A DNA stretch of 64,000 nucleotides from Flavobacterium sp. CG_23.5 (GTDB lineage Bacteria > Bacteroidota > Bacteroidia > Flavobacteriales > Flavobacteriaceae): positions 3,189,001-3,253,000 of the forward strand of contig NZ_JAGGNA010000001.1 in assembly GCF_017875765.1 (NCBI RefSeq). Reading direction: 5' to 3'. This document shows, piece after piece, positions 30,152 through 64,000 of the stretch. Made by a program: the position numbers and the translations under genes. Each line of letters starts with the position of its first letter. Positions within the stretch are counted from its first letter, which is position 1. The notes below the pieces were generated by a model. It made no database searches and had not been told where the DNA came from. It saw only the letters and a program-made list of their open reading frames with translations.

Positions 30152-30209
30152 GTGAATTGTAACTAAAGGGTTTATTGAAAACAATGCAAAATTATGAAAA
30201 AGACTGCAA

Positions 30210-36420: not shown

Positions 36421-36526
36421 CAGGAGCTGTTTCCTGCTATCCGCTAAATCTTTCCTTGTCTCGTCTCGTCTTTTGGGACCAGACGAGACAAGGAAAGGAT
36501 ACCGCTTCTATCAGGGATAGGGCATT
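36421..36526 (-). repeat. Interspersed hairpin element, copy C
   Basis: Same arms as copies A and B: AGGAGCTGTTTCC with GCTATCCGCTAAATC on one side and GGATACCGCTTCTATCAGGG on the other. The central stem (36450-36465 with 36482-36497, 16 bp perfect) has a sequence different from the other two. The GGAGCT end faces purU, which reads away on the minus strand. Confidence 0.85.
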
Positions 36527-44514: not shown

Positions 44515-45312
44515 AAGTAGGAAATTTATTCATAATTAAAATCAATTAATTTAACATGAAAATGTCTGTTAATCAATTAATTAGTAGGATATTTTTTTTA
44601 CATGTTGATGCCTTTTTTTTAATAAAGTATGTACTTTATCTTTTAAATTGGTTGTTCATCATGTTGTAATGTTCTTTTTTCTGAAATTTTTGGGTTTTTA
44701 CTAAAGCATCTTCTATTAAATGAATTGCATTACGTAGGAAAATCATTTGTAATTTTTTAAAATTATTTTAACACGTAACTAACTGTTAATCAATTAACTA
44801 AACTTTAGTTTTTTTAGATTACATAATTATTTTCTTACATACCAATGTTGATTGCCGATTTAACGGGCATCTTGTCGAGTTTATTCCTACTTTTTTTAGA
44901 TGCATTCTTTAAAATCCTTAATTTTATGTAAGAAAAGAATTAAGTTGTATTTATACGACTTTAGGTTAGTATTAGGAGTCATATATTGTTCCCCGCATAT
45001 TATATTCCTATGTTTGAGAATTCACTTCAATTATATGTAATTGAAGATTAGTTAGTAGAGGTTAGTTGCATTTCCCCAATGTGTCAATTTCCCGTAATAA
45101 CCTATTTCCCTGTTTTAATTTAGTCGGTTTGAAATTAATATAATAAATTTTTACAAATCGATTTCTGGTATGATAAAGGTGTTTTTATTCTCCTGATAAA
45201 AATATCCTTTTGAGACGGTTAGCTTCATTATTTTATTTGAAGATTAAAAATTCGCCCTGAGTCTTTAAACCTGCAATTAAAAAAAAACATATGGTTTTAA
45301 AATACTATTATT
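44515..45312 (+). promoter_or_regulatory. Conserved leader of giant-protein locus 1
   Basis: About 800 bp that align with 54034-54830 almost base for base and, in part, with 63000-63655. Shared landmarks are TTTTAACACGTAA at 44766-44778 (547 nt before the ATG), an ATGTAAGAAAAGAATTAAG stretch, a hairpin CTTCAATTA/TAATTGAAG at 45025-45046, a region with TACAAATCGATTTCTGG, and a second CTTCA/TGAAG hairpin at 45223-45242, 90 nt before the ATG. There is no open frame. It may be a long 5' UTR or a binding region for a shared regulator. Confidence 0.75.
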
Positions 45313-45840
45313 ATGAAAAAACATGTTTTATTAAATTTTTTAACGTTTTTCAGTAACCGGGATAAAGTCTTGGTTGGGGATGAAAACGAATTTAAAATGG
45401 GTTTAAGTCGAGTGAATTATTCACGGACTAAAACGAGTAAATATTTAGTCAAGGAAACTTCTAAGAATAAAAATTTTATTTCAAGTACGTTTTTACTTGT
45501 TGTATTTTTTCTTTTTACAGGGGTTCTGTATGCTCAACAACCTTCCTGTAATCTTTCAGGTCCGTTGAAAGGGTATTTTGATTCTGGAGGAGGCAGCACA
45601 ATAACCATCATTTCAGATGTTTATAACACAGGCCCCAACACTACTTATTCTTGGATAATCGATAAAAACATACCGGGGGCTACTATAGTTTCAGGTAAGG
45701 GTACGTCGAGTATTCAGGTAAAAGCAGGTACTAAAGGAGGAAGCTTTAAGATAAAGCTTACCGTCACAAATCCAGGTTTAAATGGAGGTCCAAGTGAATC
45801 TAGCACCTGCACTAAATCGGTCACCGTAGGTCGTATTTAA
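45313..45840 (+). CDS. Small secreted protein with long N-terminal extension, gene 1 of locus 1
   Basis: 175 residues. A 56-residue basic/polar N-terminal extension precedes the signal helix (STFLLVVFFLFTGVLYAQ), followed by a PKD-like or Ig-like mature domain (CNLSGPLKGYF...TTYSWIIDKNIPGATIVSG and FKIKLTVTNPG). This domain resembles the CNIVGPLKACFGNNLTYQVE domain in the next gene. It stands directly behind the conserved leader where the giant genes of locus 2 and 3 begin. The giant gene of this locus starts 7 bp after its stop codon, so they are co-transcribed. No T9SS domain is present. No specific function assigned. Confidence 0.7.
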   Translation: MKKHVLLNFLTFFSNRDKVLVGDENEFKMGLSRVNYSRTKTSKYLVKETSKNKNFISSTFLLVVFFLFTGVLYAQQPSCNLSGPLKGYFDSGGGSTITIISDVYNTGPNTTYSWIIDKNIPGATIVSGKGTSSIQVKAGTKGGSFKIKLTVTNPGLNGGPSESSTCTKSVTVGRI

Positions 45841-45847
45841 ATTATAA

Positions 45848-48800
45848 ATGATAAAAATTTACATTATGAAAATTTCAAATACTATTGAAGAATTGGGTGA
45901 CTGTTGCCATAGTTCCGGTCATTCAAATAAAAAAAAGAATAAGAAATTAGGATACTTTTCGATAGTGCTGTTTTTACTGATGACATCAGTTCAGATGGTT
46001 TATGCGCAAGTTCCTACTATTACAAGTTTTTCACCGACTTCTGCCAAAGGGGGAGCAACGGTTACCATTATAGGAACCAATTTTACTGGTGCTACTTCAG
46101 TTAAATTTGGGACAGAAGCGGCCGCTTCATTTACCGTTGTCAATTCCACTACTATAACAGCTGTAGTGTCTTCATCAGGTGAGAGCGGTAGGATTTTTGT
46201 AACTACTGCTGCAGGAACTGCTGAAATCATTAACTTTATATTTTTACCACCCCCATCATGTAACATAGTGGGTCCGTTGAAAGCGTGTTTTGGTAATAAT
46301 CTCACGTATCAAGTAGAAATTGCAAATAGTGGTTATAATCCGAGTTCAACACCGCTAGTTCCGGAGCTTCTCATATCATTCCCCCCGGGGCCAGATAACA
46401 CTACAAATGGACCAATGATTGTATCGAATACTCCATTTGCTTATGATCCTGTTACAAATTCAGGAACTTTAACAGCAGAGTTATTTCCGGGAACAACGAC
46501 AGGAAAAATTCTGGGTGTTTTAACCGTTAATGCTCCTGGAGGTAGTTGTGAATGTAGTGCCTCTATCGTAATAACAGATGTAAATATTACAACAACATCG
46601 CCTCCTATTAAATGTATTGGAGGGACTACTACTCTTCAAGTTAATGCAACTTCAAGTGGTATTCGGGCTTATAAATATACGCTGAGTCGTGCTGGATTTC
46701 CTGATATAGTCAAAGACTTCACGCCGTTCACAACGGTTTTCTTTGATAATCTTGTAGCTGGTAATTATACAGTTACCGTCATGGGTGATAGCCAGAGTAA
46801 CGGCTTAGGATGTACATCAACAGTACCAGTAGTTATTTCCGATCCACCGGCAATAGTAGTATCATCAGCAACTGGGGCGAATCCTAAATGTAATGGTGGA
46901 ACCGATGGTTCGCTTACGATTACCGCTTCAGGAGGAACAGGCACATTGATGTATTCCAAAGATAATGGTGCAACTTACCAAGCCTCTAATGTCTTCAGCG
47001 GATTAGCTGCTGGAACCTATTTATGGGCGGTAAAAGATGCCAATGATTGTATCTTGAAAGGTACGGTGACGCTCACCCAACCAACTATTTTGGCTTCTAG
47101 TGATGCTCATGTTGATGTGAAATGTAACGGAGGCAAAGATGGCTCTGTAACACTTACGTACATTGGCGGAACAAGCCCTTATATGGTGAACTTCAATGGT
47201 GCAGGCTTCGTGACTCAAACTTCTCCAAGTGCGTATACAGGTCTTACAGCCGGTACCTACACTTGGATAGTAAAAGATGCGAACGGATGTATTGTAGAAG
47301 GTTCAGAAACTATTGCACAACCAAGTATTTTGGTAGCAACAGATGCACATGCTGATGTAAAATGTAACGGTGGAAGAGATGGCTCTGTAACCGTAACATT
47401 CAGTGGCGGAACTAGTCCTTATATGGTGAACTTTAATGGTGCAGGCTTCGTGGCTCAAACTTCTCCAAATGCGTATACAGGTCTTACAGCCGGTACTTAC
47501 ACTTGGATAGTAAAAGATGCGAACGGATGTATTGTAGAAGGTTCAGAAACTATTGCACAACCAAGTATTTTGGTAGCAACAGATGCACATGCTGATGTAA
47601 AATGTAACGGTGGAAGAGATGGCTCTGTAACCGTAACATTCAGTGGCGGAACTAGTCCTTATATGGTGAACTTTAATGGTGCAGGCTTCGTGGCTCAAAC
47701 TTCTCCAAATGCGTATACAGGTCTTACAGCCGGTACGTACACTTGGATCGTTAAAGATGCGAACGGATGTATTGTTCAAGGTTCAGAAACTATTGCGCAA
47801 CCAACTATTTTGGTAGCAACAGACGCACATGCTGATGTAAAATGTAACGGTGGAAGAGATGGATCAATAAACGTAACATTCAGTGGAGGAACAAGTCCTT
47901 ATATGGTGAACTTCAATGGCGCAGGCTTCGTGACTCAAACTTCTCCAAATGCATATACAGGTCTTGCAGCCGGTACGTACACTTGGATTGTAAAAGATGC
48001 CAACGGATGTATTATGCAAGGCTCCGAAACTATTGCACAACCAACTATTTTGGTAGCGACAGATGGACATTCTGATGTGAAATGTAACGGAGGAACTGAT
48101 GGTTCAGTAACCGTAACATTCAGCGGAGGAACAAGTCCTTATATGGTGAACTTCAACGGTGCAGGCTACTTGGCTCAAACTTCTCCAAAATCGTATACAG
48201 GTCTTACCGCCGGTACCTACACTTGGATTGTTAAAGATGCCAACGGATGTATTATGGAAGGTTCCGAAACTATTGCACAACCAACTATTTTGGTAGCAAC
48301 AGATGGACATTCTGATGTGAAATGTAACGGTGGAACTGATGGTTCAGTAACCGTAACATTCAGCGGAGGAACAAGTCCTTATATGGTGAACTTCAACGGT
48401 GCAGGCTACTTGGCTCAAACTTCTCCAAAATCGTACACAGGTCTTACAGCCGGTACGTACACTTGGATTGTAAAAGATGCCAACGGATGTATTATGCAAG
48501 GTTCCGAAACTATTGCACAACCGACTATTTTGGTAGCAACAGATGGACATTCTGATGTGAAATGTAACGGAGGAACTGATGGTTCAGTAACCGTAACATT
48601 CAGCGGAGGAAGAAGTCCTTATATGGTGAACTTTAATGGTGCAGGCTACTTGGCTCAAACCTCTCCAAAATCGTACACAGGTCTTACAGCCGGTACATAT
48701 ACTTGGATTGTTAAAGATGCCAACGGATGTATTATGGAAGGTTCAGAAACTATTGCACAACCAACTATTTTGGTAGCGACAGATGGACATTCTGATGTGA

Positions 48801-51800
48801 AATGTAACGGAGGAACTGATGGTTCAGTAACCGTAACATTCAGCGGAGGAACAAGTCCTTATATGGTGAACTTCAACGGTGCAGGCTACTTGGCTCAAAC
48901 CTCTCCAAAATCGTACACAGGTCTTACCGCCGGTACATACACTTGGATTGTTAAAGATGCGAATGGATGTATTATGCAAGGTTCCGAAACTATTGCACAG
49001 CCAACTATTTTGGTAGCAACAGATGCACATGCTGATGTAAAATGTAACGGAGGAACTGATGGTTCAGTAACCGTAACATTCAGCGGAGGAACAAGTCCTT
49101 ATATGGTGAACTTCAACGGTGCAGGCTACTTGGCTCAAGCCTCTCCAAAATCGTACACAGGTCTTACCGCCGGTACGTACACTTGGATTGTTAAAGATGC
49201 CAACGGATGTATAATAGAAGGTTCCGAAACTATTGCACAACCAACTATTTTGGTAGTAGTAGATACTCAGTGCGATGTGAAATGTAATGGAGGAAACGAT
49301 GGTCATGTAACGCTAGCATTCAGCGGTGGAACCGGTCCTTATATGGTGAACTTCAATGGCGCTGGTTTCTTGGCACAAACTTCTCCAATCGCTTATACAG
49401 ATCTTACCGCCGGTACGTACTCTTGGGTAGTTAAAGATGCCAACGGATGTATACAATCAGGTTCAAAAGTGATTCGACAACCTAGTGCAGTTGTTGTGAC
49501 AGATGCCCATACTGATGTGAAATGTAACGGAGGAACTGATGGTTCCGTAACCGTAACATTCAGCGGTGGAGTAAGCGGTTATATGGTGAACTTCAATGGC
49601 GCAGGATTCGTAGCTCAAACCTCTCCAAAAGTGTATACAGGTCTTGCAGCCGGTACATATACTTGGATAGTTCAAGATGCGTATGGATGTGAACAATCTG
49701 GTTCTGAAACTATTGCACAACCAAGTATCTTGGTAGCAACAGATGCTCATACTGATGTGAAATGTAACGGAGGAACTGATGGTTCCGTAACCGTAACATT
49801 CTCAGGTGGAACAGCTCCTTATATGGTGAACTTCAATGGCGCAGGCTACTTGGCTCAAACTTCTCCAAAAGCGTACACAGGTCTTACCGCCGGTACGTAT
49901 ACTTGGATTGTAAAAGATGCCAACGGATGTACTATGCAAGGTTCAGAAACTATTGCACAACCAACTATTTTGGTAGCAACAGATGCCCATTCTGATGTGA
50001 AATGTAACGGAGGAACTGATGGTTCCGTAACCGTGACATTCAGCGGAGGAACAAGTCCTTATATGGTGAACTTCAACGGTGCAGGCTACTTGGCTCAAAC
50101 CTCTCCAAAATCGTACACAGGTCTTACCGCCGGTACGTACACTTGGATTGTTAAAGATGCCAACGGATGTATTATGGAAGGTTCAGAAACTATTGCACAA
50201 CCAACTATTTTGGTAGCAACAGATGGACATTCTGATGTGAAATGTAACGGTGGAACTGATGGTTCAGTTACCGTAACATTCAGCGGAGGAACAAGTCCTT
50301 ATATGGTGAACTTCAACGGTGCAGGCTACTTGGCTCAAACCTCTCCAAAATCGTACACAGGTCTTACCGCCGGTACGTACACTTGGATTGTTAAAGATGC
50401 CAACGGATGTATTATGCAAGGTTCCGAAACTATTGCACAACCGACTATTTTGGTAGCAACAGATGGACATTCTGATGTTAAATGTAACGGAGGAACTGAT
50501 GGTTCCGTAACCGTAACATTCAGCGGAGGAACAAGTCCTTATATGGTGAACTTCAACGGTGCAGGCTACTTGGCTCAAACCTCTCCAAAATCGTATACAG
50601 GTCTTACCGCCGGTACGTACACTTGGATTGTTAAAGATGCCAACGGATGTATCATGCAAGGTTCAGAAACTATTGCACAACCAACTATTTTGGTAGCAAC
50701 AGATGGACATTCTGATGTGAAATGTAACGGTGGAACTGATGGTTCAGTTACCGTAACATTCAGCGGAGGAACAAGTCCTTATATGGTGAACTTCAACGGT
50801 GCAGGCTACTTGGCTCAAACTTCTCCAAAATCGTACACAGGTCTTACAGCCGGTACGTACACTTGGATTGTTAAAGATGCCAACGGATGTATAATGGAAG
50901 GTTCCGAAACTATTGCACAACCGACTATTTTGGTAGCAACAGATGGACATTCTGATGTGAAATGTAACGGAGGAACTGATGGTTCAGTAACCGTAACATT
51001 CAGCGGAGGAACAAGTCCTTATATGGTGAACTTTAATGGTGCAGGCTACTTGGCTCAAACCTCTCCAAAATCGTACACAGGTCTTACAGCCGGTACATAT
51101 ACTTGGATTGTTAAAGATGCCAACGGATGTATTATGCAAGGTTCCGAAACTATTGCACAACCAACTATTTTGGTAGCGACAGATGGACATTCTGATGTGA
51201 AATGTAACGGAGGAACTGATGGTTCAGTAACCGTAACATTCAGCGGAGGAACAAGTCCTTATATGGTGAACTTCAACGGTGCAGGCTACTTGGCTCAAAC
51301 CTCTCCAAAATCGTACACAGGTCTTACCGCCGGTACCTACACTTGGATTGTAAAAGATGCCAACGGATGTATTATGCAAGGTTCCGAAACTATTGCACAA
51401 CCAACTATTTTGGTAGCAACAGATGGACATTCTGATGTGAAATGTAACGGAGGAACTGATGGTTCAGTAACCGTAACATTCAGCGGAGGAACAAGTCCTT
51501 ATATGGTGAACTTTAATGGTGCAGGCTACTTGGCTCAAACTTCTCCAAAATCGTACACAGGTCTTACCGCCGGTACGTACACTTGGATTGTTAAAGATGC
51601 CAACGGATGTATAATGGAAGGTTCAGAAACTATTGCACAACCAACTATTTTGGTAGCAACAGACGCACATTCTGATGTGAAATGTAACGGAGGAACTGAT
51701 GGTTCCGTAACCGTAACATTCAGCGGAGGAACAAGTCCTTATATGGTGAACTTCAACGGCGGCGGCTACTTGGCTCAAACCTCTCCAAAATCGTATACAG

Positions 51801-53350
51801 GTCTTACCGCCGGTACGTATACTTGGATTGTTAAAGATGCTAACGGATGTATAATGCAAGGTTCAGAAACTATTGCACAACCAGCATTGCTTGTGGCTAA
51901 TGTTACTCCAATAAATCCTAAATGTTGTTATGATCCTGACGGTTCAATAACCATTTCTGCTACTGGAGGTACAGGAACACTGATGTATTCCATCAATAAT
52001 GGAACAACTTACCAAGCCTCTAATGTATTTAGCGGATTACTTGCTGGAACATATAACTGGGTGGTGAAAGATGCTAATAATTGCATCTTGAGAGGTACGG
52101 TTACTTTAACCAATCCTCCATTGATTGTCGCATCATCAATTCTTGTGAATCCTAAATGCAATGGAGGAACAGACGGTTCGATTACGATTATCGCTTCAGG
52201 CGGTACTGGTACATTAACGTACTCCATTGATCAAGGTCTTACTTATCAATCATCCAATGTGTTTACAGGCCTTGCGGCAGGAGAATACAAATGGAGAGTG
52301 AAAGATGCCAATGGCTGCTTATTGAAAGGTACGTTTATCTTGACCACTCCACCAGCGGTGACAGTAACAGCAACTCTTGTGAATCCTAAATGTAATGGAG
52401 GAACTGACGGTTCGATTACTGTTAATGCTACGGGAGGAAATGCTCCTTTGATGTACTCTCTAAATGATGGTGCTACTTTCCAATCGTCTAATGTGTTTAC
52501 TGCTTTAGCAGCTGGACAATATCAATGGGCGGTAAAAGAATCAAATGGATGTGTTACAAAAGGAACTGTTAATCTTAGCAATCCTGCATTAATAGTTGCG
52601 TCAGCAACACCTACAAATCCTAAATGTACTGGAGGAGCCGATGGTTCATTCACAATTACAGCTTCAGGAGGTACAGGTATACTAACGTACTCTAAAGATG
52701 ACGGATTAACTTACCAATCATCAAACATATTTAGCGGACTTGCTGCGGGAGTTTATGATTGGGCGGTGAAAGATGCTAACGGATGTATTTTGAAAGGATC
52801 AGTTACTTTAGTTAATCCACAATTAATTGCAGTGTCTGTATCTGCTGTAAACCCTTCTTGCTGTGTAGCATTGAAAGATGGTTCAATTACATTAAACGCA
52901 ACGGGCGGAACAGGTTTATTGATGTATTCAATTGATAATGGAAGTACATTCCAAACATCAAACTTCTTTGCTACCTTAACTGCAGGAGTCTACAATTGGA
53001 TAGTGAAAGATGCTAATAATTGTCAAATCACTGGAATCGTTACTTTACGTATCCCAAGTGATCCACTAGCGCGACCAGCTGCTAAAACTACAGCAGACTT
53101 TACAGCATATCCAGTTCCTTTTAAAGATGTTCTTACAATCAGATACGATTTTGATTACATCTCTGATGTGAAAATAGAAATGTTTGACGCACTAGGAAGA
53201 GTGATACTTACTAAATTGGACACAAATAGTTACTATAATAAAGAAATCATGTTAATACCTAGCTCTACCATTGAGCAGGAACAGGTTTATATTGTGAAAG
53301 TGACTACTGACAAAGGATACGCCACTAAAAAAGTGATGTCTGGAAAATAG
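45848..53350 (+). CDS. Giant SprB-repeat surface protein with T9SS type A sorting domain (2500 residues)
   Basis: Predicted exported cell-surface adhesin related to SprB-type proteins. It starts with an extended N-terminal region (MIKIYIM... then NKKKNKKLGYFSIVLFLLM), then an IPT/TIG domain (VPTITSFSPTSAKGGATVTI, residues 55-130), a CNIVGPLK-type domain, one divergent repeat, one A-type repeat (78 residues), twenty B-type repeats (80 residues each, SYKxYxG, VKCNGG...DGS and CI(M/I)xGSETIAQP), and five C-type repeats with paired Cys. The C-terminus (from FTAYPVPFKDVLTIRYDFDY to VMSGK) is a T9SS type A sorting domain. The alternative start is the ATG at 45866. Overlaps no operon partner except the small gene upstream. 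Confidence 0.9.
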   Translation: MIKIYIMKISNTIEELGDCCHSSGHSNKKKNKKLGYFSIVLFLLMTSVQMVYAQVPTITSFSPTSAKGGATVTIIGTNFTGATSVKFGTEAAASFTVVNSTTITAVVSSSGESGRIFVTTAAGTAEIINFIFLPPPSCNIVGPLKACFGNNLTYQVEIANSGYNPSSTPLVPELLISFPPGPDNTTNGPMIVSNTPFAYDPVTNSGTLTAELFPGTTTGKILGVLTVNAPGGSCECSASIVITDVNITTTSPPIKCIGGTTTLQVNATSSGIRAYKYTLSRAGFPDIVKDFTPFTTVFFDNLVAGNYTVTVMGDSQSNGLGCTSTVPVVISDPPAIVVSSATGANPKCNGGTDGSLTITASGGTGTLMYSKDNGATYQASNVFSGLAAGTYLWAVKDANDCILKGTVTLTQPTILASSDAHVDVKCNGGKDGSVTLTYIGGTSPYMVNFNGAGFVTQTSPSAYTGLTAGTYTWIVKDANGCIVEGSETIAQPSILVATDAHADVKCNGGRDGSVTVTFSGGTSPYMVNFNGAGFVAQTSPNAYTGLTAGTYTWIVKDANGCIVEGSETIAQPSILVATDAHADVKCNGGRDGSVTVTFSGGTSPYMVNFNGAGFVAQTSPNAYTGLTAGTYTWIVKDANGCIVQGSETIAQPTILVATDAHADVKCNGGRDGSINVTFSGGTSPYMVNFNGAGFVTQTSPNAYTGLAAGTYTWIVKDANGCIMQGSETIAQPTILVATDGHSDVKCNGGTDGSVTVTFSGGTSPYMVNFNGAGYLAQTSPKSYTGLTAGTYTWIVKDANGCIMEGSETIAQPTILVATDGHSDVKCNGGTDGSVTVTFSGGTSPYMVNFNGAGYLAQTSPKSYTGLTAGTYTWIVKDANGCIMQGSETIAQPTILVATDGHSDVKCNGGTDGSVTVTFSGGRSPYMVNFNGAGYLAQTSPKSYTGLTAGTYTWIVKDANGCIMEGSETIAQPTILVATDGHSDVKCNGGTDGSVTVTFSGGTSPYMVNFNGAGYLAQTSPKSYTGLTAGTYTWIVKDANGCIMQGSETIAQPTILVATDAHADVKCNGGTDGSVTVTFSGGTSPYMVNFNGAGYLAQASPKSYTGLTAGTYTWIVKDANGCIIEGSETIAQPTILVVVDTQCDVKCNGGNDGHVTLAFSGGTGPYMVNFNGAGFLAQTSPIAYTDLTAGTYSWVVKDANGCIQSGSKVIRQPSAVVVTDAHTDVKCNGGTDGSVTVTFSGGVSGYMVNFNGAGFVAQTSPKVYTGLAAGTYTWIVQDAYGCEQSGSETIAQPSILVATDAHTDVKCNGGTDGSVTVTFSGGTAPYMVNFNGAGYLAQTSPKAYTGLTAGTYTWIVKDANGCTMQGSETIAQPTILVATDAHSDVKCNGGTDGSVTVTFSGGTSPYMVNFNGAGYLAQTSPKSYTGLTAGTYTWIVKDANGCIMEGSETIAQPTILVATDGHSDVKCNGGTDGSVTVTFSGGTSPYMVNFNGAGYLAQTSPKSYTGLTAGTYTWIVKDANGCIMQGSETIAQPTILVATDGHSDVKCNGGTDGSVTVTFSGGTSPYMVNFNGAGYLAQTSPKSYTGLTAGTYTWIVKDANGCIMQGSETIAQPTILVATDGHSDVKCNGGTDGSVTVTFSGGTSPYMVNFNGAGYLAQTSPKSYTGLTAGTYTWIVKDANGCIMEGSETIAQPTILVATDGHSDVKCNGGTDGSVTVTFSGGTSPYMVNFNGAGYLAQTSPKSYTGLTAGTYTWIVKDANGCIMQGSETIAQPTILVATDGHSDVKCNGGTDGSVTVTFSGGTSPYMVNFNGAGYLAQTSPKSYTGLTAGTYTWIVKDANGCIMQGSETIAQPTILVATDGHSDVKCNGGTDGSVTVTFSGGTSPYMVNFNGAGYLAQTSPKSYTGLTAGTYTWIVKDANGCIMEGSETIAQPTILVATDAHSDVKCNGGTDGSVTVTFSGGTSPYMVNFNGGGYLAQTSPKSYTGLTAGTYTWIVKDANGCIMQGSETIAQPALLVANVTPINPKCCYDPDGSITISATGGTGTLMYSINNGTTYQASNVFSGLLAGTYNWVVKDANNCILRGTVTLTNPPLIVASSILVNPKCNGGTDGSITIIASGGTGTLTYSIDQGLTYQSSNVFTGLAAGEYKWRVKDANGCLLKGTFILTTPPAVTVTATLVNPKCNGGTDGSITVNATGGNAPLMYSLNDGATFQSSNVFTALAAGQYQWAVKESNGCVTKGTVNLSNPALIVASATPTNPKCTGGADGSFTITASGGTGILTYSKDDGLTYQSSNIFSGLAAGVYDWAVKDANGCILKGSVTLVNPQLIAVSVSAVNPSCCVALKDGSITLNATGGTGLLMYSIDNGSTFQTSNFFATLTAGVYNWIVKDANNCQITGIVTLRIPSDPLARPAAKTTADFTAYPVPFKDVLTIRYDFDYISDVKIEMFDALGRVILTKLDTNSYYNKEIMLIPSSTIEQEQVYIVKVTTDKGYATKKVMSGK
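47101..51900 (+). repeat. Twenty tandem 240-bp repeats (B-type SprB units)
   Basis: Twenty consecutive units of exactly 240 bp (80 codons), phase 47101 + 240n. No indel in 4800 bp. The units are near-identical to diverged by blocks (for example units starting 49261 and 49501 are the most different). Each has a VKCNGG, PYMVNFNGAG and QTSP segment and an ending near CI..GSETIAQP. Confidence 0.93.
51901..53060 (+). repeat. Five C-type repeats, locus 1
   Basis: Five 78-codon units (starting NVTPINPKCC, SILVNPKCNGG, TATLVNPKCNGG, SATPTNPKCTGG and SVSAVNPSCC). CCTAAATG landmarks are 234 bp apart (51917, 52151, 52385, 52619). Nearly identical in order to the block at 60981. Confidence 0.85.
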
Positions 53351-53372
53351 AAAAAATTAATAACCTTAATGT

Positions 53373-53400
53373 AAAAGCATCCGTTTTCGCGGATGCTTTT
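53373..53400 (+). terminator. Terminator of locus 1
   Basis: 11-bp perfect stem (53373-53383 with 53390-53400), 6-nt loop and T6 run, 20 nt after the stop codon. Confidence 0.85.
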
Positions 53401-54830: not shown

Positions 54831-57800
54831 ATGAAAAAGAATACAATTTTTAAGTTTTTCGATTTCTTATACAACAAAATAATGAGTTGCTTTTTAACGA
54901 AAAACTCCACGTCTAAATTAAATTTCAAGAAATTTAATAAGAGACCTACTGTCAATTATTTATCAAGATTGGAGCAGTTTCAATGGCGACAATGGGTCGC
55001 AACGTCCCTTTTATTGATAGTGTTTTTGCTATCAAATACAACTATTCAAGCACAAGGCTCCATTAAAGGATTTGTGCCTGTTTTAGCTCCTAAGTCAGGA
55101 TCTGGAGTTGATGGAGATGCATATGCCCATATGCCCGCCGGGTACGAAAATGTGGGTGATTTATTTGACGCTCAACATCCTGACATAAATGGTCATGGAG
55201 TCATTAATCCCTTTACTGGGGAGTTATTGTATCCTGGACAATCTTTTTTTCTGCAGGATAGATATGAAAATGATTTAACCATCTTTACTTCATCTAATAA
55301 AATAAATGACAATCCCAATACTTATACTTGGGGGCCGGGCAACTCGCCCAACAAAAATGAAATCCAAAACGCTGGAGCCCATTTCTCATACGGTGATCCT
55401 AATTTACCGGGAGGTGTAGCAACCGATTTATGGTGTTTATTTGCGGGTGACCGACAAGTTACCAACGGTAGCAGCTATATTGATTTCGAGTTTTTGCAAA
55501 AATCAATGACCATCACTGGTGCTACTATGGCTTCCAATGGCTCTATTACCGGAGGTAGTGGGGGTTTTACCAGTTTGGGTACCGATGGTGGTCGTACACT
55601 AGGTGACATTCTGATCACTATCGAGTTTACTAACGGTGGTGGCGATGCTAATGCCGTGATTCGGGTGTGGTCAGCTAAGGCTGGAGGAGGATTTGAATAT
55701 GTCATTCATCCCAATTCAGAGTTTCTTGGTAAAATATTCATCACTAATAATGACACCGTAACTCACGTTCCCTTTGATGTTTACGGTAGTGATCCAAATG
55801 GAACCGGTGTAGGTGGGGATTATGCTCCGAATCAATGGGCCGAAGGAGCCATTAATCTTACGCAGGTATTTAAAAATGCGTTTAAAGATCCTTGTTTTTC
55901 AATAAGCACGGTTTTTATTAGAACAAGATCTTCTGGAAGTTCACAACAGTCAGAATTAAAAGATTTCCCTGGCGCTCCTATTCAATTCACTGTGGATGGA
56001 AGACCAAAAGGAGTTGCAGTGGCAACAAATCCAGCTTGTAATGGTGGATTTGGTTCTATAGACCTTACCGTTACTGGGGGGACTGCTGGATTTACGTATT
56101 CTTGGACTGGTCCAAATAATTTTACTGCATCCACACAAGATATCAGTAATGTATTAGCCGGTACCTATCAATGGCAAATTACGGATTCCAAAGGATGCAA
56201 ATCATCGGGATCAGTTGTTGTTTCTCAACCGCCAGCGATTGTAGTCTCTTCTGCAGTGTTAGTAAGTCCTAAATGTAATGGTGGAACCGATGGTTCAATC
56301 ACGATTACTGCTACAGGCGGAACAGGAACTTTGATGTATTCAGCCAATAATGGCACGACTTACCAAGCCTCTAATATCTTCAGCGGATTAACTGCTGGAA
56401 CGTATTTATGGGCGGTAAAAGATGCCAACAATTGTGTGTTGAAAGGATCCGTTACGATCACTCAACCAACTGCAATCGCTGTATCAGCGGTACTTGTAAG
56501 TCCTAAATGTAATGGTGGAACCGATGGTTCAATCACGATTACGGCTTCAGGAGGAACAGGAACACTAATGTATTCAGCTAATGATGGATCTACTTACCAA
56601 GCCTCTAATGTCTTCAGCGGATTAACTGCTGGAACGTATTTATGGGCGGTGAAAGATGCCAACAATTGTGTATTGAAAGGATCCGTTACGATCACTCAAC
56701 CAACTGCAATCGCTGTATCAGCGGTACTTGTAAGTCCTAAATGTAATGGTGGAACCGATGGTTCAATCACGATTACGGCTACAGGAGGAACAGGAACACT
56801 GATGTATTCAGCCAATGATGGCTCTACTTACCAAGCCTCTAATGTCTTCAGCGGATTAACTGCTGGAACGTATTTATGGGCGGTGAAAGATGCCAACAAT
56901 TGTGTGTTGAAAGGATCCGTTACGATCACTCAACCAACCGCAATCGCTGTATCAGCGGTACTTGTAAGTCCTAAATGTAATGGAGGAACCGATGGTTCAA
57001 TCACGATTACTGCTACAGGCGGAACAGGAACTTTGATGTATTCAGCCAATGATGGCTCAACTTACCAAGCCTCTAATGTCTTCAGCGGATTAACTGCTGG
57101 AACGTATCAATGGGCGGTAAAAGATGCCAACAATTGTGTATTAAAAGGATCCGTTACGATCACTCAACCAACCGCAATCGCTGTATCAGCGGTACTTGTA
57201 AGTCCTAAATGTAATGGTGGAACCGATGGTTCAATCACGATTACTGCTACAGGCGGAACAGGAACACTGATGTATTCAGCCAATGATGGCTCAACTTACC
57301 AAGCCTCTAATGTCTTCAGCGGATTAACTGCTGGAACGTATCTATGGGCGGTAAAAGATGCCAACAATTGTGTATTGAAAGGATCCGTTACGATCACTCA
57401 ACCAACTGCAATCGCTGTATCAGCTGTACTTGTAAGTCCTAAATGTAATGGTGGAACCGATGGTTCAATCACGATTACCGCTACAGGAGGAACAGGAACA
57501 CTGATGTATTCAGCCAATGATGGATCAACTTACCAAGCCTCTAATGTCTTCAGCGGATTAACTGCTGGAACGTATTTATGGGCGGTAAAAGATGCCAACA
57601 ATTGTGTGTTGAAAGGATCCGTTACGATCACTCAACCAACCGCAATCGCTGTATCAGCGGTACTTGTAAGTCCTAAATGTAATGGTGGAACCGATGGTTC
57701 AATCACGATTACTGCTACAGGCGGAACAGGAACACTGATGTATTCAGCCAATGATGGCTCTACTTACCAAGCCTCTAATGTCTTCAGCGGATTAACTGCT

Positions 57801-60800
57801 GGAACCTATCTATGGGCGGTAAAAGATGCCAACAATTGTGTGTTGAAAGGATCTGTTACGATCACTCAACCAACCGCAATCGCTGTATCAGCAGTACTTG
57901 TAAGTCCTAAATGTAATGGTGGAACCGATGGTTCAATCACGATTACCGCTTCAGGAGGAACAGGAACACTGATGTATTCAGCCAATGATGGATCAACTTA
58001 CCAAGCCTCTAATGTCTTCAGCGGATTAACTGCTGGAACGTATTTATGGGCGGTAAAAGATGCCAACAATTGTGTGTTGAAAGGATCCGTTACGATCACT
58101 CAACCAACCGCAATCGCTGTATCAGCGGTACTTGTAAGTCCTAAATGTAATGGAGGAACCGATGGTTCAATCACGATTACTGCTACAGGCGGAACAGGAA
58201 CTTTGATGTATTCAGCCAATGATGGATCAACTTACCAAGCCTCTAATGTCTTCAGCGGATTAACTGCTGGAACGTATTTATGGGCGGTGAAAGATGCCAA
58301 CAATTGTGTGTTGAAAGGATCCGTTACGATCACTCAACCAACCGCAATCGCTGTATCAGCTGTACTTGTAAGTCCTAAATGTAATGGAGGAACCGATGGT
58401 TCAATCACGATTACGGCTACAGGCGGAACAGGAACACTGATGTATTCAGCCAATGATGGATCAACTTACCAAGCCTCTAATGTCTTCAGCGGATTAACTG
58501 CTGGAACGTATCTATGGGCGGTAAAAGATGCCAACAATTGTGTATTGAAAGGATCAGTTACGATCACTCAACCAACTGCAATCGCTGTATCAGCGGTACT
58601 TGTAAGTCCTAAATGTAATGGTGGAACCGATGGTTCAATCACGATTACCGCTACAGGAGGAACAGGAACTTTGATGTATTCAGCCAATGATGGCACGACT
58701 TACCAAGCCTCTAATGTCTTCAGCGGATTAACTGCTGGAACGTATCTATGGGCGGTAAAAGATGCCAACAATTGTGTGTTGAAAGGATCTGTTACGATCA
58801 CTCAACCAACTATTTTGGTAGCAACAGATGGACATTCTGATGTGAAATGTAACGGAGGAACTGATGGTTCAGTAACCGTAACATTCAGCGGAGGAACAAG
58901 TCCTTATATGGTGAACTTTAATGGTGCAGGCTACTTGGCTCAAACTTCTCCAAAATCGTATACAGGTCTTACCGCCGGTACGTACACTTGGATTGTTAAA
59001 GATGCCAACGGATGTATCATGCAAGGTTCAGAAACTATTGCACAACCAACTATTTTGGTAGCAACAGATGGACATTCTGATGTGAAATGTAACGGTGGAA
59101 CTGATGGTTCAGTTACCGTAACATTCTCAGGTGGAACAGCTCCTTATATGGTGAACTTCAATGGTGCAGGCTTCGTGGCTCAAACTTCTCCAAAATCGTA
59201 CACAGGTCTTACCGCAGGTACGTACACTTGGATTGTTAAAGATGCGTATGGATGTGAACAATCTGGTTCCGAAACTATTGCACAACCAACTATTTTGGTA
59301 GCAACAGATGCTCATACTGATGTGAAATGTAACGGAGGAACTGATGGTTCCGTAACCGTAACATTCTCAGGTGGAACAGCTCCTTATATGGTGAACTTCA
59401 ATGGCGCAGGCTACTTGGCTCAAACTTCTCCAAAAGCGTACACAGGTCTTACCGCCGGTACGTATACTTGGATTGTAAAAGATGCCAACGGATGTACTAT
59501 GCAAGGTTCAGAAACTATTGCACAACCAACTATTTTGGTAGCAACAGATGCCCATTCTGATGTGAAATGTAACGGAGGAACTGATGGTTCCGTAACCGTG
59601 ACATTCAGCGGAGGAACAAGTCCTTATATGGTGAACTTCAACGGTGCAGGCTACTTGGCTCAAACCTCTCCAAAATCGTACACAGGTCTTACCGCCGGTA
59701 CGTACACTTGGATTGTTAAAGATGCCAACGGATGTATTATGCAAGGTTCCGAAACTATTTCACAACCAACTATTTTGGTAGCAACAGATGGACATTCTGA
59801 TGTGAAATGTAACGGAGGAACTGATGGTTCAGTTACCGTAACATTCAGCGGAGGAACAAGTCCTTATATGGTGAACTTCAACGGTGCAGGCTACTTGGCT
59901 CAAACCTCTCCAAAATCGTACACAGGTCTTACCGCCGGTACGTACACTTGGATTGTAAAAGATGCCAACGGATGTATTATGGAAGGTTCAGAAACTATTG
60001 CACAACCAACTATTTTGGTAGCAACAGATGGACATTCTGATGTGAAATGTAACGGAGGAACTGATGGTTCCGTAACCGTAACATTCAGCGGAGGAACAAG
60101 TCCTTATATGGTGAACTTTAATGGTGCAGGCTACTTGGCTCAAACTTCTCCAAAATCGTATACAGGTCTTACAGCCGGTACGTACACTTGGGTTGTAAAA
60201 GATGCCAACGGATGTATTATGGAAGGTTCCGAAACTATTGCACAACCGACTATTTTGGTGGCAACAGATGGACATTCTGATGTGAAATGTAACGGAGGAA
60301 CTGATGGTTCCGTAACCGTAACATTCAGCGGAGGAACAAGTCCTTATATGGTGAACTTCAACGGTGCAGGCTACTTGGCTCAAACCTCTCCAAAATCGTA
60401 CACAGGTCTTACAGCCGGTACGTACACTTGGATTGTTAAAGATGCCAACGGATGTATTATGGAAGGTTCCGAAACTATTGCACAACCAACTATTTTGGTA
60501 GCAACAGATGGACATTCTGATGTGAAATGTAACGGAGGAACTGATGGTTCAGTAACCGTAACATTCAGCGGAGGAACAAGTCCTTATATGGTGAACTTCA
60601 ACGGTGCAGGCTACTTGGCTCAAACCTCTCCAAAATCGTACACAGGTCTTACCGCCGGTACGTACACTTGGATTGTTAAAGATGCCAACGGATGTATTAT
60701 GGAAGGTTCCGAAACTATTGCACAACCAACTATTTTGGTAGCAACAGATGGACATTCTGATGTGAAATGTAACGGAGGAACTGATGGTTCAGTAACCGTA

Positions 60801-62438
60801 ACATTCAGCGGCGGAACAAGTCCTTATATGGTGAACTTCAACGGTGCAGGCTACTTGGCTCAAACGTCTCCAAAATCGTACACAGGTCTTACCGCCGGTA
60901 CATACACTTGGATTGTTAAAGATGCCAACGGATGTATTATGCAAGGTTCCGAAACTATTGCACAGCCAGCATTGCTTGTGGCTAATGTTACTCCAATAAA
61001 TCCTAAATGTTGTTATGATCCTGACGGTTCAATAACCATTTCTGCTACTGGAGGTACAGGAACACTGATGTATTCCATCAATAATGGAACATCTTACCAA
61101 ACATCTAATGTATTTAGCGGATTACTTGCTGGAACATATAACTGGGTGGTAAAAGATGCTAATAATTGCATCTTGAGAGGTACGGTTACTTTAACCAATC
61201 CTCCATTGATTGTCGCAACATCAATTCTTGTGAATCCTAAATGTAATGGAGGAACAGACGGTTCGATTACGATTATCGCTTCAGGAGGTACTGGTACATT
61301 AACGTACTCCATTGATCAAGGTCTTACTTATCAATCATCCAATGTGTTTACAGGCCTTGCGGCAGGAGAATACAAATGGAGAGTGAAAGATGCCAATGGC
61401 TGCTTATTGAAAGGTACGTTTATCTTGACCACTCCACCAGCGGTGACAGTAACAGCAACTCTTGTGAATCCTAAATGTAATGGAGGAACTGACGGTTCGA
61501 TTACTGTTAATGCTACGGGAGGAACTGCTCCTTTGATGTACTCTCTAAATGATGGTGCTACTTACCAATCGTCTAATGTGTTTACTGCTTTAGCAGCTGG
61601 ACAATATCAATGGGCGGTTAAAGAGAACAATGGTTGTATTTCCAGAGGTACGGTTAATTTAATTAATCCTGTAATGATAGTTGCATCAGCAACACCTACA
61701 AATCCTAAATGTAATGGAGGAGCCGACGGTTCATTTACCATCACAGCAACAGGAGGAACAGGGGTATTGATGTACTCTGCAGATAATGGAGCAAATTACC
61801 AAACTTCTAATGTATTTGCTGCTCTTAAGGCTGGGGAATACAAATGGGTGGTAAAAGATGCCAATGGATGTATGATGAGTGGAACTGTTAACTTAGTGAA
61901 TCCGATATTAATTTCGGTATCTGTAGCGGCAGTAAACCCTTCATGTTGTGAAGCTTTAAAAGATGGTTCAATCACATTGAACGCTTCTGGCGGAACGGGT
62001 GCATTCATGTATTCCATCAATGGTGGAACTACGTACCAAACATCTAATTTCTTTGGTAGTTTAACTGCGGGAGTGTACAATTGGATTGTGAAAGATGCGA
62101 ACAACTGTGTTATAAGCGGTACGGTTACTTTACGTAACCCAACTGATCCACTTGCTAAACCAGCTGCGCCAACTGTGACTGCTAGTTTTACAGCATATCC
62201 AGTTCCTTTTAAAGATGTTCTTACAATCAGATACGATTTTGATTACCAATCTGACGTCACAATTGAAGTATTAAATTCACAAGGAATGCCTATACTTTCA
62301 AAAACTGATACTAATAGTTATTTAGGCAAAGAAATTATGCTACACCTTCATACATATCAAGGTCAAGAGCAAGTTTATCTTGTCAAAGTAACTACTGATA
62401 GAGGAAGTAGCGTTAAAAAAGTAATGTCTTCTAAATAA
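54831..62438 (+). CDS. Giant SprB-repeat surface protein with T9SS type A sorting domain (2535 residues)
   Basis: Predicted exported adhesin. A 55-residue extension precedes the signal helix (WVATSLLLIVFLLSN, cleavage near AQG). A domain of about 320 residues (GFVPVLAPKSGSGVDGDAYAH, FAGDRQVTNGSSYIDFEFLQ) resembles a secreted 'GADR...GFWFLQ' module of unknown role. It is followed by one divergent repeat, eleven A-type repeats (78 residues each, VSPKCNGGTDGS, SANDGSTYQASNVFSG), nine B-type repeats (80 residues) that are practically the same as in locus 1, five C-type repeats and the sorting domain (FTAYPVPFKDVLTIRYDFDY...VMSSK). The order A-B-C, with A lacking in number in locus 1, shows a modular gene. 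Confidence 0.9.
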   Translation: MKKNTIFKFFDFLYNKIMSCFLTKNSTSKLNFKKFNKRPTVNYLSRLEQFQWRQWVATSLLLIVFLLSNTTIQAQGSIKGFVPVLAPKSGSGVDGDAYAHMPAGYENVGDLFDAQHPDINGHGVINPFTGELLYPGQSFFLQDRYENDLTIFTSSNKINDNPNTYTWGPGNSPNKNEIQNAGAHFSYGDPNLPGGVATDLWCLFAGDRQVTNGSSYIDFEFLQKSMTITGATMASNGSITGGSGGFTSLGTDGGRTLGDILITIEFTNGGGDANAVIRVWSAKAGGGFEYVIHPNSEFLGKIFITNNDTVTHVPFDVYGSDPNGTGVGGDYAPNQWAEGAINLTQVFKNAFKDPCFSISTVFIRTRSSGSSQQSELKDFPGAPIQFTVDGRPKGVAVATNPACNGGFGSIDLTVTGGTAGFTYSWTGPNNFTASTQDISNVLAGTYQWQITDSKGCKSSGSVVVSQPPAIVVSSAVLVSPKCNGGTDGSITITATGGTGTLMYSANNGTTYQASNIFSGLTAGTYLWAVKDANNCVLKGSVTITQPTAIAVSAVLVSPKCNGGTDGSITITASGGTGTLMYSANDGSTYQASNVFSGLTAGTYLWAVKDANNCVLKGSVTITQPTAIAVSAVLVSPKCNGGTDGSITITATGGTGTLMYSANDGSTYQASNVFSGLTAGTYLWAVKDANNCVLKGSVTITQPTAIAVSAVLVSPKCNGGTDGSITITATGGTGTLMYSANDGSTYQASNVFSGLTAGTYQWAVKDANNCVLKGSVTITQPTAIAVSAVLVSPKCNGGTDGSITITATGGTGTLMYSANDGSTYQASNVFSGLTAGTYLWAVKDANNCVLKGSVTITQPTAIAVSAVLVSPKCNGGTDGSITITATGGTGTLMYSANDGSTYQASNVFSGLTAGTYLWAVKDANNCVLKGSVTITQPTAIAVSAVLVSPKCNGGTDGSITITATGGTGTLMYSANDGSTYQASNVFSGLTAGTYLWAVKDANNCVLKGSVTITQPTAIAVSAVLVSPKCNGGTDGSITITASGGTGTLMYSANDGSTYQASNVFSGLTAGTYLWAVKDANNCVLKGSVTITQPTAIAVSAVLVSPKCNGGTDGSITITATGGTGTLMYSANDGSTYQASNVFSGLTAGTYLWAVKDANNCVLKGSVTITQPTAIAVSAVLVSPKCNGGTDGSITITATGGTGTLMYSANDGSTYQASNVFSGLTAGTYLWAVKDANNCVLKGSVTITQPTAIAVSAVLVSPKCNGGTDGSITITATGGTGTLMYSANDGTTYQASNVFSGLTAGTYLWAVKDANNCVLKGSVTITQPTILVATDGHSDVKCNGGTDGSVTVTFSGGTSPYMVNFNGAGYLAQTSPKSYTGLTAGTYTWIVKDANGCIMQGSETIAQPTILVATDGHSDVKCNGGTDGSVTVTFSGGTAPYMVNFNGAGFVAQTSPKSYTGLTAGTYTWIVKDAYGCEQSGSETIAQPTILVATDAHTDVKCNGGTDGSVTVTFSGGTAPYMVNFNGAGYLAQTSPKAYTGLTAGTYTWIVKDANGCTMQGSETIAQPTILVATDAHSDVKCNGGTDGSVTVTFSGGTSPYMVNFNGAGYLAQTSPKSYTGLTAGTYTWIVKDANGCIMQGSETISQPTILVATDGHSDVKCNGGTDGSVTVTFSGGTSPYMVNFNGAGYLAQTSPKSYTGLTAGTYTWIVKDANGCIMEGSETIAQPTILVATDGHSDVKCNGGTDGSVTVTFSGGTSPYMVNFNGAGYLAQTSPKSYTGLTAGTYTWVVKDANGCIMEGSETIAQPTILVATDGHSDVKCNGGTDGSVTVTFSGGTSPYMVNFNGAGYLAQTSPKSYTGLTAGTYTWIVKDANGCIMEGSETIAQPTILVATDGHSDVKCNGGTDGSVTVTFSGGTSPYMVNFNGAGYLAQTSPKSYTGLTAGTYTWIVKDANGCIMEGSETIAQPTILVATDGHSDVKCNGGTDGSVTVTFSGGTSPYMVNFNGAGYLAQTSPKSYTGLTAGTYTWIVKDANGCIMQGSETIAQPALLVANVTPINPKCCYDPDGSITISATGGTGTLMYSINNGTSYQTSNVFSGLLAGTYNWVVKDANNCILRGTVTLTNPPLIVATSILVNPKCNGGTDGSITIIASGGTGTLTYSIDQGLTYQSSNVFTGLAAGEYKWRVKDANGCLLKGTFILTTPPAVTVTATLVNPKCNGGTDGSITVNATGGTAPLMYSLNDGATYQSSNVFTALAAGQYQWAVKENNGCISRGTVNLINPVMIVASATPTNPKCNGGADGSFTITATGGTGVLMYSADNGANYQTSNVFAALKAGEYKWVVKDANGCMMSGTVNLVNPILISVSVAAVNPSCCEALKDGSITLNASGGTGAFMYSINGGTTYQTSNFFGSLTAGVYNWIVKDANNCVISGTVTLRNPTDPLAKPAAPTVTASFTAYPVPFKDVLTIRYDFDYQSDVTIEVLNSQGMPILSKTDTNSYLGKEIMLHLHTYQGQEQVYLVKVTTDRGSSVKKVMSSK
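56268..58804 (+). repeat. Eleven tandem 234-bp repeats (A-type units)
   Basis: CCTAAATG landmark recurs every 234 bp from 56268 to 58608 (11 units). Units are near-identical, with a few synonymous changes (for example TTATGGGC vs CTATGGGC). The last unit joins the B-type array in frame. Confidence 0.92.
58821..60980 (+). repeat. Nine tandem 240-bp repeats (B-type units), locus 2
   Basis: Nine units of exactly 240 bp from 58821, no indels. Sequence is interchangeable with the B array at 47101-51900; the stretch 59306-59740 equals 49741-50175. Confidence 0.93.
60981..62130 (+). repeat. Five C-type repeats, locus 2
   Basis: Same five units in the same order as 51901-53060. The first three units are almost identical at DNA level, the last two are more diverged. 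Confidence 0.85.
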
Positions 62439-62493
62439 TTTTAAATAATTAACTAATCCTATAAAATATAGAGAAGGATTGGAGTTTAAGATT

Positions 62494-62522
62494 AAACCTC
62501 GAAAGTTATACTTTCGAGGTTT
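62494..62522 (+). terminator. Terminator of locus 2
   Basis: 12-bp perfect stem (62494-62505 with 62511-62522), 5-nt loop and T run. Confidence 0.85.
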
Positions 62523-62999
62523 TTTTTTGACTTTTTTCTCGCACTGAAATCAGCATATTTCAAATTTTGGCCGTAAGGGACTTTTGAAAAATGGAGTTGT
62601 ACTTTAAATAATCAAGGATAAAACTGATTTGTGGGATAATAAAATCATTTCCAAAAAAAAGAGGATTTTAAACATAAAACACTAAATACGTTGAAGGAAA
62701 TAGACAAAATACCTGTTAATAGGACGCTATAAAAATACCATTATGGTTATAAGAAATAACACCATTTTAAGATCTTTTATACTAGTTCATTAAACACCAT
62801 TTCAGATGTCTTTTTTATGAATCCATAATCTATAAGGTTAATTTATATTTAATTGAATTAAAGCTTTCTTTTTAAGTCTAAAGCGATAGTGAGCTAGATT
62901 GTAAGAATTAAATTCGCCCATTTCTCCACTGATTTATAAACCAAAAAATTCCAAAATTGGATAAAAAATAATTTAGATAATAGGATTAGAATTTATCAC
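62523..62999. other. Intergenic spacer between giant loci 2 and 3
   Basis: 477 bp, AT-rich; no gene, RNA or repeat recognised. Confidence 0.5.
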
Positions 63000-63655
63000 A
63001 TTTTATCTTTTTTTATGTGACGATTCCAACGAAAAAAATAAAGTACGGTAAGTAAGAAAAATTGTGTTTAATTTGTCGTTATTTTTAACACGTAATACAC
63101 TAACAATCAATACATTACGTTTTTGTTAATTTTTATTTCTATCTTAATTTTCTTATTTAATGATGTTCTTTGTCGATATAAATGGTGATTTAATCGAGTA
63201 TAATTTTGTTTTTCTGTCTCTTTTTGATTTAATGATTAATTTTAATCTCAGTAAATAATTAAGTTGTTTTTTAATTAAACAGCTTTTAAAAAAGTTTGTG
63301 GATAGGGATGTGTTTCTCCACATTATTATATCCTGATTATGAAGGTTAACTTCATTAATTTTAAATGAAGATGGCTTATTTGCTGTTAGTTACATTTCCA
63401 AAAAATGTAAGATTCCAGTTTTTTCCTAATTACTATTTAATGTTAATTACTTAAAATTAACAGTCTGAATTTTTTCGCAAATCGATTTTATTTGGTAAAA
63501 GAAATGTTGTTTTTATTGAGCAAATAAAAACATTCATTAATGACGGTGACTTCATTATTTTGAATGAAGAGAGTTGATGTTATCTTAAAGTTTTTCTATC
63601 CCAAGTCTGTAAACTTCCTTTTATATCTAATGTATGGTGCTAAAATACTTTTATT
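63000..63655 (+). promoter_or_regulatory. Diverged leader of giant-protein locus 3
   Basis: Less conserved than the first two but with the same landmarks in the same order: TTTTAACACGTAA at 63083-63095, hairpin I CTTCATT/AATGAAG at 63350-63370, hairpin II CTTCATT/AATGAAG at 63550-63569 (200 nt after I), then the ending GTCTGTAAACTTCCT and TATGGTGCTAAAATAC before the ATG. Confidence 0.7.
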
Positions 63656-64000
63656 ATGAAAAAGAGTACACTTCTACAGTTTTTCGTTAATTTATATGGC
63701 AAAATAACCAATAGCCTTTTGACGAAAAATGCTCTTTCTAAATTAAATTTTCCAAAATTTAATGAGAGAACTTCAATCGATTTTTTATCGAGATTATGGA
63801 CCAGTCATTGGCGCCAGTCAATTGCTAAGCCTCTATTATGTTTGGCAGTTATGCTGATGGGCTACACAATTAATGCTCAGAATATTCAAGGTGTTGTTCC
63901 CGTAAAATATCCCCTTACCGGTTCTGGAGTGGATGGCGATGCCTTTGCTCATACACCTGATTTTACTAATTCTCTTTACATTAATACAGGAGACTTGTTT
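63656..64000 (+). CDS. Third giant surface protein, 5' part only
   Basis: Open frame from the ATG at 63656 to the window end (115 codons), no stop. It aligns with the start of the locus 2 product: MKKSTLLQFFVNLYGKI (vs MKKNTIFKFFDFLYNKI), SKLNF, KFN, a signal helix (LLCLAVMLMGYTINAQ) and the mature start QGVVPVKYP then GSGVDGDAFAH. It is very probably a third full-length gene of the same kind. Its repeat content is not visible. Confidence 0.88.
   Translation, partial: MKKSTLLQFFVNLYGKITNSLLTKNALSKLNFPKFNERTSIDFLSRLWTSHWRQSIAKPLLCLAVMLMGYTINAQNIQGVVPVKYPLTGSGVDGDAFAHTPDFTNSLYINTGDLF

Follow-up and report, generated by a model that had tools for sequence, protein, structure and literature searches.

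A tandem array of genes for giant type IX-secreted proteins in Flavobacterium sp. CG_23.5 and its genus-wide hairpin-bearing leaders, candidate 5' regulatory RNAs

The window analyzed here, a stretch of 64,000 nucleotides (nt), corresponds to C1:3189001-3253000 of the 3.67-Mb single-contig genome of Flavobacterium sp. CG_23.5. From position 44515 onwards, it holds an array of genes for giant surface proteins with predicted export by the type IX secretion system (T9SS), all on the + strand. A previous reading made from the sequence alone (the sequence-only reading) had described three leaders of the same build, each followed by a long frame. Their likeness was confirmed: leader 1 (44515-45315) is 88% identical to leader 2 (54030-54833) over 801 nt, and between leaders 2 and 3 (63083-63658) the identity is 66% over 576 nt. 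The count was too low, as a fourth leader and gene follow, and the array comprises four surface-protein units, each gene with its own leader. Leader 1 (non-coding, 44515..45312) is separated from its giant gene by a 175-codon open reading frame (ORF; 45313..45840). The product of this ORF is predicted to be secreted; its long signal region has a hydrophobic stretch beginning at residue 55, and it carries a PKD_6 domain; a C-terminal sorting domain (CTD) was not seen in it.

Gene 1 (45848..53350) starts 7 nt past the stop of this ORF and encodes 2500 residues, comprising a signal region whose hydrophobic stretch begins at residue 34, SprB repeats, and a T9SS type A CTD; its repeat block (47078..51883) contains 20.0 copies of a 240-bp repeat. 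Leader 2 (54030..54830) is followed by gene 2 (54831..62438; 2535 residues), which encodes a 75-residue signal region, an N-terminal domain of about 320 residues, SprB repeats, and a type A CTD, the repeat block (56262..60968) being composed of a 234-bp repeat (10.9 copies) and a 240-bp repeat (9.0 copies). Leader 3 (63083..63655) precedes gene 3, of which the window holds the first 115 codons (63656..64000). Extension of the sequence bore out the predicted third repeat gene past position 64000: the full frame (C1:3252656-3258379) encodes 1907 residues with Ig_7/PKD-type repeats and a type A CTD. Leader 4 (about L022:7450-7876), first marked by a short match to the other leaders, and the first codons of gene 4 are split from the gene body (1510 residues, L022:9487-14019) by an IS3-type insertion sequence (HTH_Tnp_1 and rve ORFs; L022:7920-9470, about C1:3258919-3260469), which sits inside the signal extension. 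SprB repeat arrays were found only in genes 1 and 2 among the array genes, with 26 individually passing stretches in each; the Pfam scans found no such array in gene 3 and a single weak SprB match in gene 4, whose repeats are of other kinds.

The array genes share their sequences unevenly. In their 3' halves, genes 1 and 2 match at 91% identity over 3.6 kb. Genes 3 and 4 have the CTD as their single common stretch (83% over 264 nt). Besides the CTD, genes 2 and 3 have in common the beginning of the signal region and part of the N-terminal domain, and genes 1 and 3 have no common stretch above 60 bits. This pattern of sharing therefore indicates that the middle parts change and the ends stay. 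Within the repeat blocks, the 300-nt windows 49700-49999 (gene 1) and 59265-59564 (gene 2) are 99% identical, compared with 80-93% to other windows, and are by this measure the apparent product of recent exchange between the two genes; the amplification proposed in the sequence-only reading is thus upheld as duplication with exchange. The near-identity of the CTDs of genes 1 and 2 was also correctly recognized, although the identical tract spans 60 bp rather than 57 bp (53099-53158 and 62187-62246) and the coordinates of the second copy had been one base off. Inverted repeats of ≥ 30 nt within 40000-64000 amounted to 0 pairs, so there is no sign of invertible promoters.

Each leader of the array contains hairpin modules, which were described by two covariance models, R1 and R2. 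Both models gave eight matches in the own genome, two per leader, and all R2 matches lie on the gene strand: 44955-45093 and 45159-45290 in leader 1, 54475-54611 and 54678-54794 in leader 2, and 63280-63417 and 63481-63619 in leader 3. Significant matches to leader, module, and CTD subtype are confined to the array within the 3.67-Mb genome (for the CTD subtype, four matches at E ≤ 0.01, only in the four array genes); short leader matches elsewhere, at E ≥ 0.016, were taken as chance. A module comprises three predicted stems, namely P1 (AAAAGnAU..UUAUUGU-UCCCC-ACAAUAA..AUnCUUUU), H1 (CUUCAUAAA..UUUAUGAAG) with a near-invariant CUUCA/UGAAG stem, and H2, in its best form AAGUUUUC-UCCCCAAGUCU-GAAAACUU, with a CCC-rich loop. 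A further stem upstream of P1, named P0, is visible in many units and is not claimed, as it folds alike in sense and antisense (z −0.67 versus −0.51, 136 regions). Modules follow each other at a median spacing of about 199 nt (67 spacings, leader 3 counted twice; interquartile range 187-207, range 123-337). Among 72 fetched loci, 24 leaders hold one module, 35 hold two, 12 hold three, and one holds four. The first module lies 103-820 nt before the ATG (307-327 nt in leaders 1-3), and the distance from the model end to the ATG is 14-30 nt in 51/72, 70-130 nt in 14/72, and other in 7/72. No family of Rfam release 15 reached its gathering score in the leaders; the best of three weak matches, on the opposite strand, scored 31.9 bits where the cut-off is 49.

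To determine how widely the modules occur, we searched for related loci both by protein (33 loci in named genomes) and by model (75 leader clusters). At E ≤ 0.001, R1 matched 49 of the 398 genomes searched in the genus, a lower bound because G051 (modules at E 1.2e-4, outside the 75 leader clusters) was missed when fewer candidates were scored. Among 397 genomes from 237 genera of the family, R2 at the same threshold matched the own one only; it is less sensitive under the filters used, as G063 has an R1 match and lacks an R2 match. Weak R1 matches (best E 0.004-0.1, 12 genomes) are mostly chance: a gene of the kind described below stands behind the match in two genomes (G025 and G006) and not in the other ten. 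With the N-terminal domain of gene 2 as the starting point, an R2 module lies upstream of 22 of the 23 loci in Flavobacterium at E ≤ 0.0005 and of the remaining one (L079) at E 0.011. At E ≤ 0.05, R2 modules were found at 0/10 loci with this domain in Lutibacter, Christiangramia, Mangrovibacterium, Sunxiuqinia, and a Bacteroidales genome, and in 0/24 control stretches of the own genome. These distributions support a module family limited to the lineage, in line with the lineage-specific family suggested before; in other species of Flavobacterium, the same modules precede genes of a similar kind. Species differ in how many leader clusters they have, and many genomes have a single one.

The modules are linked to one class of gene across the genus. 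A frame with a long signal region stands behind 72 of the 75 leader clusters, the own four being excluded from this count. The three remaining clusters are L176, the weakest match, where no gene was found, and L211 and L214 (in G005 and G031), where modules also occur before another gene just upstream of a leader gene. This other gene is presumably ketoacyl-synthase-like, and its modules are perhaps decayed copies or mark a second target. With an 11-residue hydropathy window, the hydrophobic core of the 72 leader genes starts at a median of residue 45 (range 21-92; ≥ 21 in 72/72 and ≥ 30 in 65/72), compared with a median of 7 (≤ 20 in 19/23) for type A CTD proteins that the own genome encodes outside the array. 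These controls are 23 of the 25 non-array CTD matches, the two shortest frames being left out, and the unclear starts of L263 and L265 were counted as they stand. In genes 1-3, the putative Sec signal has its hydrophobic stretch from residue 34-59, followed by cleavage-like AQ sites (by eye). Across six genes, the 75-codon signal region has a nonsynonymous divergence (dN) of 0.17-0.44 and a synonymous divergence (dS) of 0.34-1.32, so the region is kept as a peptide. By eye, the mature parts behind the leaders are of several unrelated kinds. In the ten relatives from other genera, which have no leader, the hydrophobic stretch begins at residue 17-36, and in a few Flavobacterium relatives with the leader present it begins at residue 24-31; the lengthened signal is thus not strictly tied to the leader.

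For the N-terminal domain of about 320 residues (54831-56000 and relatives), an alignment of 34 sequences from various Bacteroidota (A8) shows 52 invariant columns. In gene 2, the domain had no Pfam or NCBIfam match, and a profile search of PDB sequences returned none at E ≤ 1. AlphaFold gave a pLDDT of 43.8, or 58.5 (pTM 0.61) with the 34 sequences, and Foldseek of the model against the PDB found none at E ≤ 0.001; no fold is claimed. Regarding the surroundings, leader genes adjoin the same few neighbors across species (by eye; L027, L111, and L114; L109, L110, and L115), including IcmF in some and, in others, a gene that we take to be type III polyketide-synthase-like.

To assess pairing in the predicted stems, three alignments were compared with shuffled versions and, for A6 and A7, with versions slid out of register. 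A6, a MAFFT alignment that is not structure-fitted, contains 44 hand-picked units and 28 pairs; its units are 34 of the 42 that fit the P1 loop pattern or lie in the window, plus ten others. In A6, 83.9% of cells are paired, compared with 79.3 ± 0.5% after shuffling (0/500 reach it) and 45-54% in the slid versions. A5 (144 matches, 140 distinct; 14 pairs) is paired to 86.5% versus 78.4%, and A7 (138 matches, 136 distinct; 28 pairs) to 83.7% versus 74.7%, with changes on both sides in 26/28 pairs of A7 compared with 20.1 in shuffles and 11-17 when slid. Judged from these alignments, compensatory base changes are a feature of the predicted stems of the leader modules. P1 is, selection aside, the least circular stem because R1 was made without its 5' arm. 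Changes in the H1 stem, counted by module, are A>G in the 3' arm 16 times and T>C in the 5' arm three times, an asymmetry predicted by tolerance of G-U pairs on the sense strand. Of 61 dyad matches, six doubtful or off-register ones were removed, and 49 of the remaining 55 are in alignment A3, which leaves out L079:4716, two of L086, L057, L082, and L092:4561. Furthermore, the 44 units fold better in sense than in antisense (mean z −0.85 versus −0.42, p 0.003).

Putative signals of transcription lie around the modules. The motif TAnnTTTG is described as the flavobacterial −7 box in the available text of PMC9723704. In the 75 leaders, it occurs 47 times before the first module (1.91/kb), 18 times in modules (0.91/kb), and 0 times in the 4096 nt between the last module and the ATG. 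At −103..−88, it is present in 13/76 leaders (500 shuffles: mean 2.0, maximum 6). Further upstream motifs are TTTTCTTA/TATTCTTA in 34/76 leaders (8.5 ± 2.9 in shuffles) and a TCG-N17-21-TCG repeat in 27/76 (4.1 ± 2.0, maximum 9 in 200 shuffles). In the array, operator-like direct repeats lie at 44852..44879 in leader 1 (TTGCCG..TTGTCG, three mismatches to the leader 2 copy) and at 54372..54399 in leader 2 (TTGTCG..TTGTCG); at ≤ 3 mismatches, the leader 2 form has only two occurrences in the genome, one in each of these leaders. The upstream motifs look like a transcriptional control that the leaders have in common, so control by RNA and control by DNA may operate together. Terminator-like hairpins with a T run follow gene 1 (53373..53404, −16.5 kcal/mol, z −7.6) and gene 2 (62494..62527, −19 kcal/mol, z −6.2), and one also follows gene 3, so separate transcription units are the simplest reading. 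The terminator scan as a whole found 15 versus 13.4 expected, and use was made only of the 12-13-pair hairpins after genes 1 and 2, refolded against their own shuffles. An E. coli-type promoter scan (77 found versus 63.4 expected) was not used.

With a probability of about 0.66, we read the array as a series of cassettes, each transcribed separately, that encode giant Sec/T9SS type A surface proteins and in which the leader would act in cis as the RNA of a 5' untranslated region (UTR), providing shared control. Each cassette would consist of a promoter region, the structured 5' leader, a signal peptide lengthened at its N-terminus, an exchangeable repeat-rich middle, a near-constant CDT, and a terminator. 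Transcription would start before the first module, and the modules would fold into P1 with its UCCCC loop, H1 with its CUUCA/UGAAG stem, and H2 with its CCC-rich loop. A trans-acting protein or RNA probably binds the C-rich loops, and the folded 5' UTR may set transcript stability or translation, which would coordinate the synthesis of very large export substrates. The analysis shows the build of the cassettes, their conservation, the covariation in the stems, and the link to this class of gene across the genus, whereas transcription of the leader, its effect, its binding partner, and the direction of control are all parts of the account that we infer. The common control of the units proposed earlier agrees with their shared control region, the terminator-like hairpins after genes 1-3, and the shared upstream motifs. 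Tentatively, and with the odds rather against it, the modular 5'-UTR RNA might be inherited as a unit with the long signal extension, forming a plug-in address for expression and export in which the number of modules (one to four) serves as a dial; whatever repeat-rich surface protein came to stand behind this as yet undescribed class of leader would then be produced and exported under a single RNA-based control.

Several observations weigh against an RNA leader. In A6, the pairs with changes on both sides number 16, which is not above some slid versions (10-16); A5 and A7 were fitted to the models, and the P1 loop pattern had a part in the choice of sequences for A6. The sequences are related, so the shuffle counts are not probabilities, and the 16 versus three changes in H1 count modules, not independent events. 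An excess of G-U over A-C in all stems was considered as a sign of RNA and rejected, since composition accounts for most of it (135 versus 31; in shuffles 133 versus 41). Folding energies are only slightly better than those of shuffles; leader 2 does not fold better than its shuffles (z 0.13), and leader 3 has z −1.41 in antisense and −1.29 in sense. The exact box at −103..−88 is limited to the 13 leaders mentioned, with the own four not clearly among them. A TTG-N-TAnnTTTG match lies inside module 1 of leaders 1 and 2, so transcription there could start after P1 of that module. Lastly, the ten relatives with the N-terminal domain in other genera do without the leader.

Some of these points would fit modules that act as DNA, namely as repeated dyad sites for a transcription factor in a long upstream region with the transcription start near the gene. 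The near-invariant dyad CTTCA..TGAAG of H1, the promoter match within module 1 of leaders 1 and 2, and the operator-like direct TCG repeats upstream agree with this account. However, the arms of P1 and H2 vary while pairing is kept, which fixed protein sites do not need, and the arm substitutions in H1 are asymmetric. The TAnnTTTG box is absent between the last module and the ATG, and the loops and flanks seem by eye to be conserved on one strand only; we hold a purely DNA-based role to be unlikely. It is quite improbable that the leaders have no regulatory role and are duplicated flanks that provide homology for the exchange of repeat regions and CTDs by recombination. The identities between leaders 1 and 2, between the 3' halves of genes 1 and 2, and across the 300-nt windows, together with cluster numbers that differ by species, would be expected from such a process, yet genomes with a single cluster still keep recognizable modules with paired stems, and the modules hold their place before one gene class (72/75).

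A further alternative concerns the proteins and is compatible with an RNA leader. The SprB repeats of genes 1 and 2 had led the sequence-only reading to SprB-type gliding adhesins, an assignment that the sorting domains and the other two genes do not favor. In the genome search, TIGR04183 (type A CTD) exceeded its 23-bit cut-off in all four array genes, among 29 type A matches in the own genome; in the protein scan, the CTD of gene 2 scored 21.3 bits, under the cut-off. No type B CTD was found in the array genes, and SprB repeat arrays are absent from genes 3 and 4. No sprF/porP-like partner gene was found among the Pfam-scanned array and flanking genes (IcmF, the 175-residue ORF, the ORFs of the insertion sequence, DUF1543, a matchless 173-residue ORF, TerC, and GSIII). 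According to the available text of PMC12618676, SprB with a swapped-in type A CTD is exported, yet immobile. The type A CTDs of the array genes predict statically anchored or released proteins, but RemA, also of type A, takes part in gliding according to the same text. The genome also encodes a third SprB-repeat protein of 2954 residues (C1 about 2.7-11.6 kb, − strand; L274, C1:1-14000), which has an ordinary signal peptide and no leader module, and whose C-terminus we read as type B. By these features, it is the better SprB candidate than the array genes, and a gliding role of the SprB kind for the latter seems to us quite improbable.

Should the leader indeed function as RNA, a regulatory RNA found across the genus would mark out a class of giant T9SS surface proteins, of which the sources list many only as hypothetical or sorting-domain proteins. 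Such an RNA would then offer a sequence handle for finding this class and would help in asking how cells time and dose products of 1500-2500 residues that have to pass two membranes.

Among known systems, SprB of Flavobacterium johnsoniae resembles the array proteins in its SprB repeats (genes 1 and 2), its giant size, and its T9SS export signal, but has a type B CTD, compared with type A in the array, where no SprF-type partner was found among the scanned array and flanking genes; the leader class, if confirmed as RNA, would set the array proteins apart from SprB-type gliding adhesins. Tandem riboswitches, such as the glycine type, contain two or more similar RNA domains in one leader, and the array leaders likewise have similar domains in series; however, they match no riboswitch family, and no metabolic gene stands behind the 72 leader loci. 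Flavo-1 RNA (RF01705) is likewise a structured RNA of flavobacteria, with none in leaders 1-3 at the gathering threshold and none to E = 1 in the four leader loci; three Flavo-1 elements lie elsewhere in the window, at 15988-16076 (−), 30208-30297 (+), and 36426-36522 (−). Extended signal peptides are described for autotransporters in the available text of PMC2805444. They similarly place an extra N-terminal stretch before the hydrophobic core of large exported proteins, but in another phylum and for another secretion system. We take this extension to be the one known as ESPR, and Pfam scans of the array proteins gave no match to the ESPR family at E ≤ 0.001. In F. psychrophilum, where the median 5' UTR is 24 nt long, 64 structured 5' regions are reported, several without Rfam match. 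Like the leaders, they have a structure immediately ahead of the start codon; the available text of that study (PMC9723704) makes no mention of tandem modules in front of genes for giant surface proteins. The literature searched, with most subscription papers outside it, contained no description of these leaders. A structured 5' leader is thus of a known kind, whereas its tandem build and its association with long-signal, giant surface proteins of the T9SS appear to be new.

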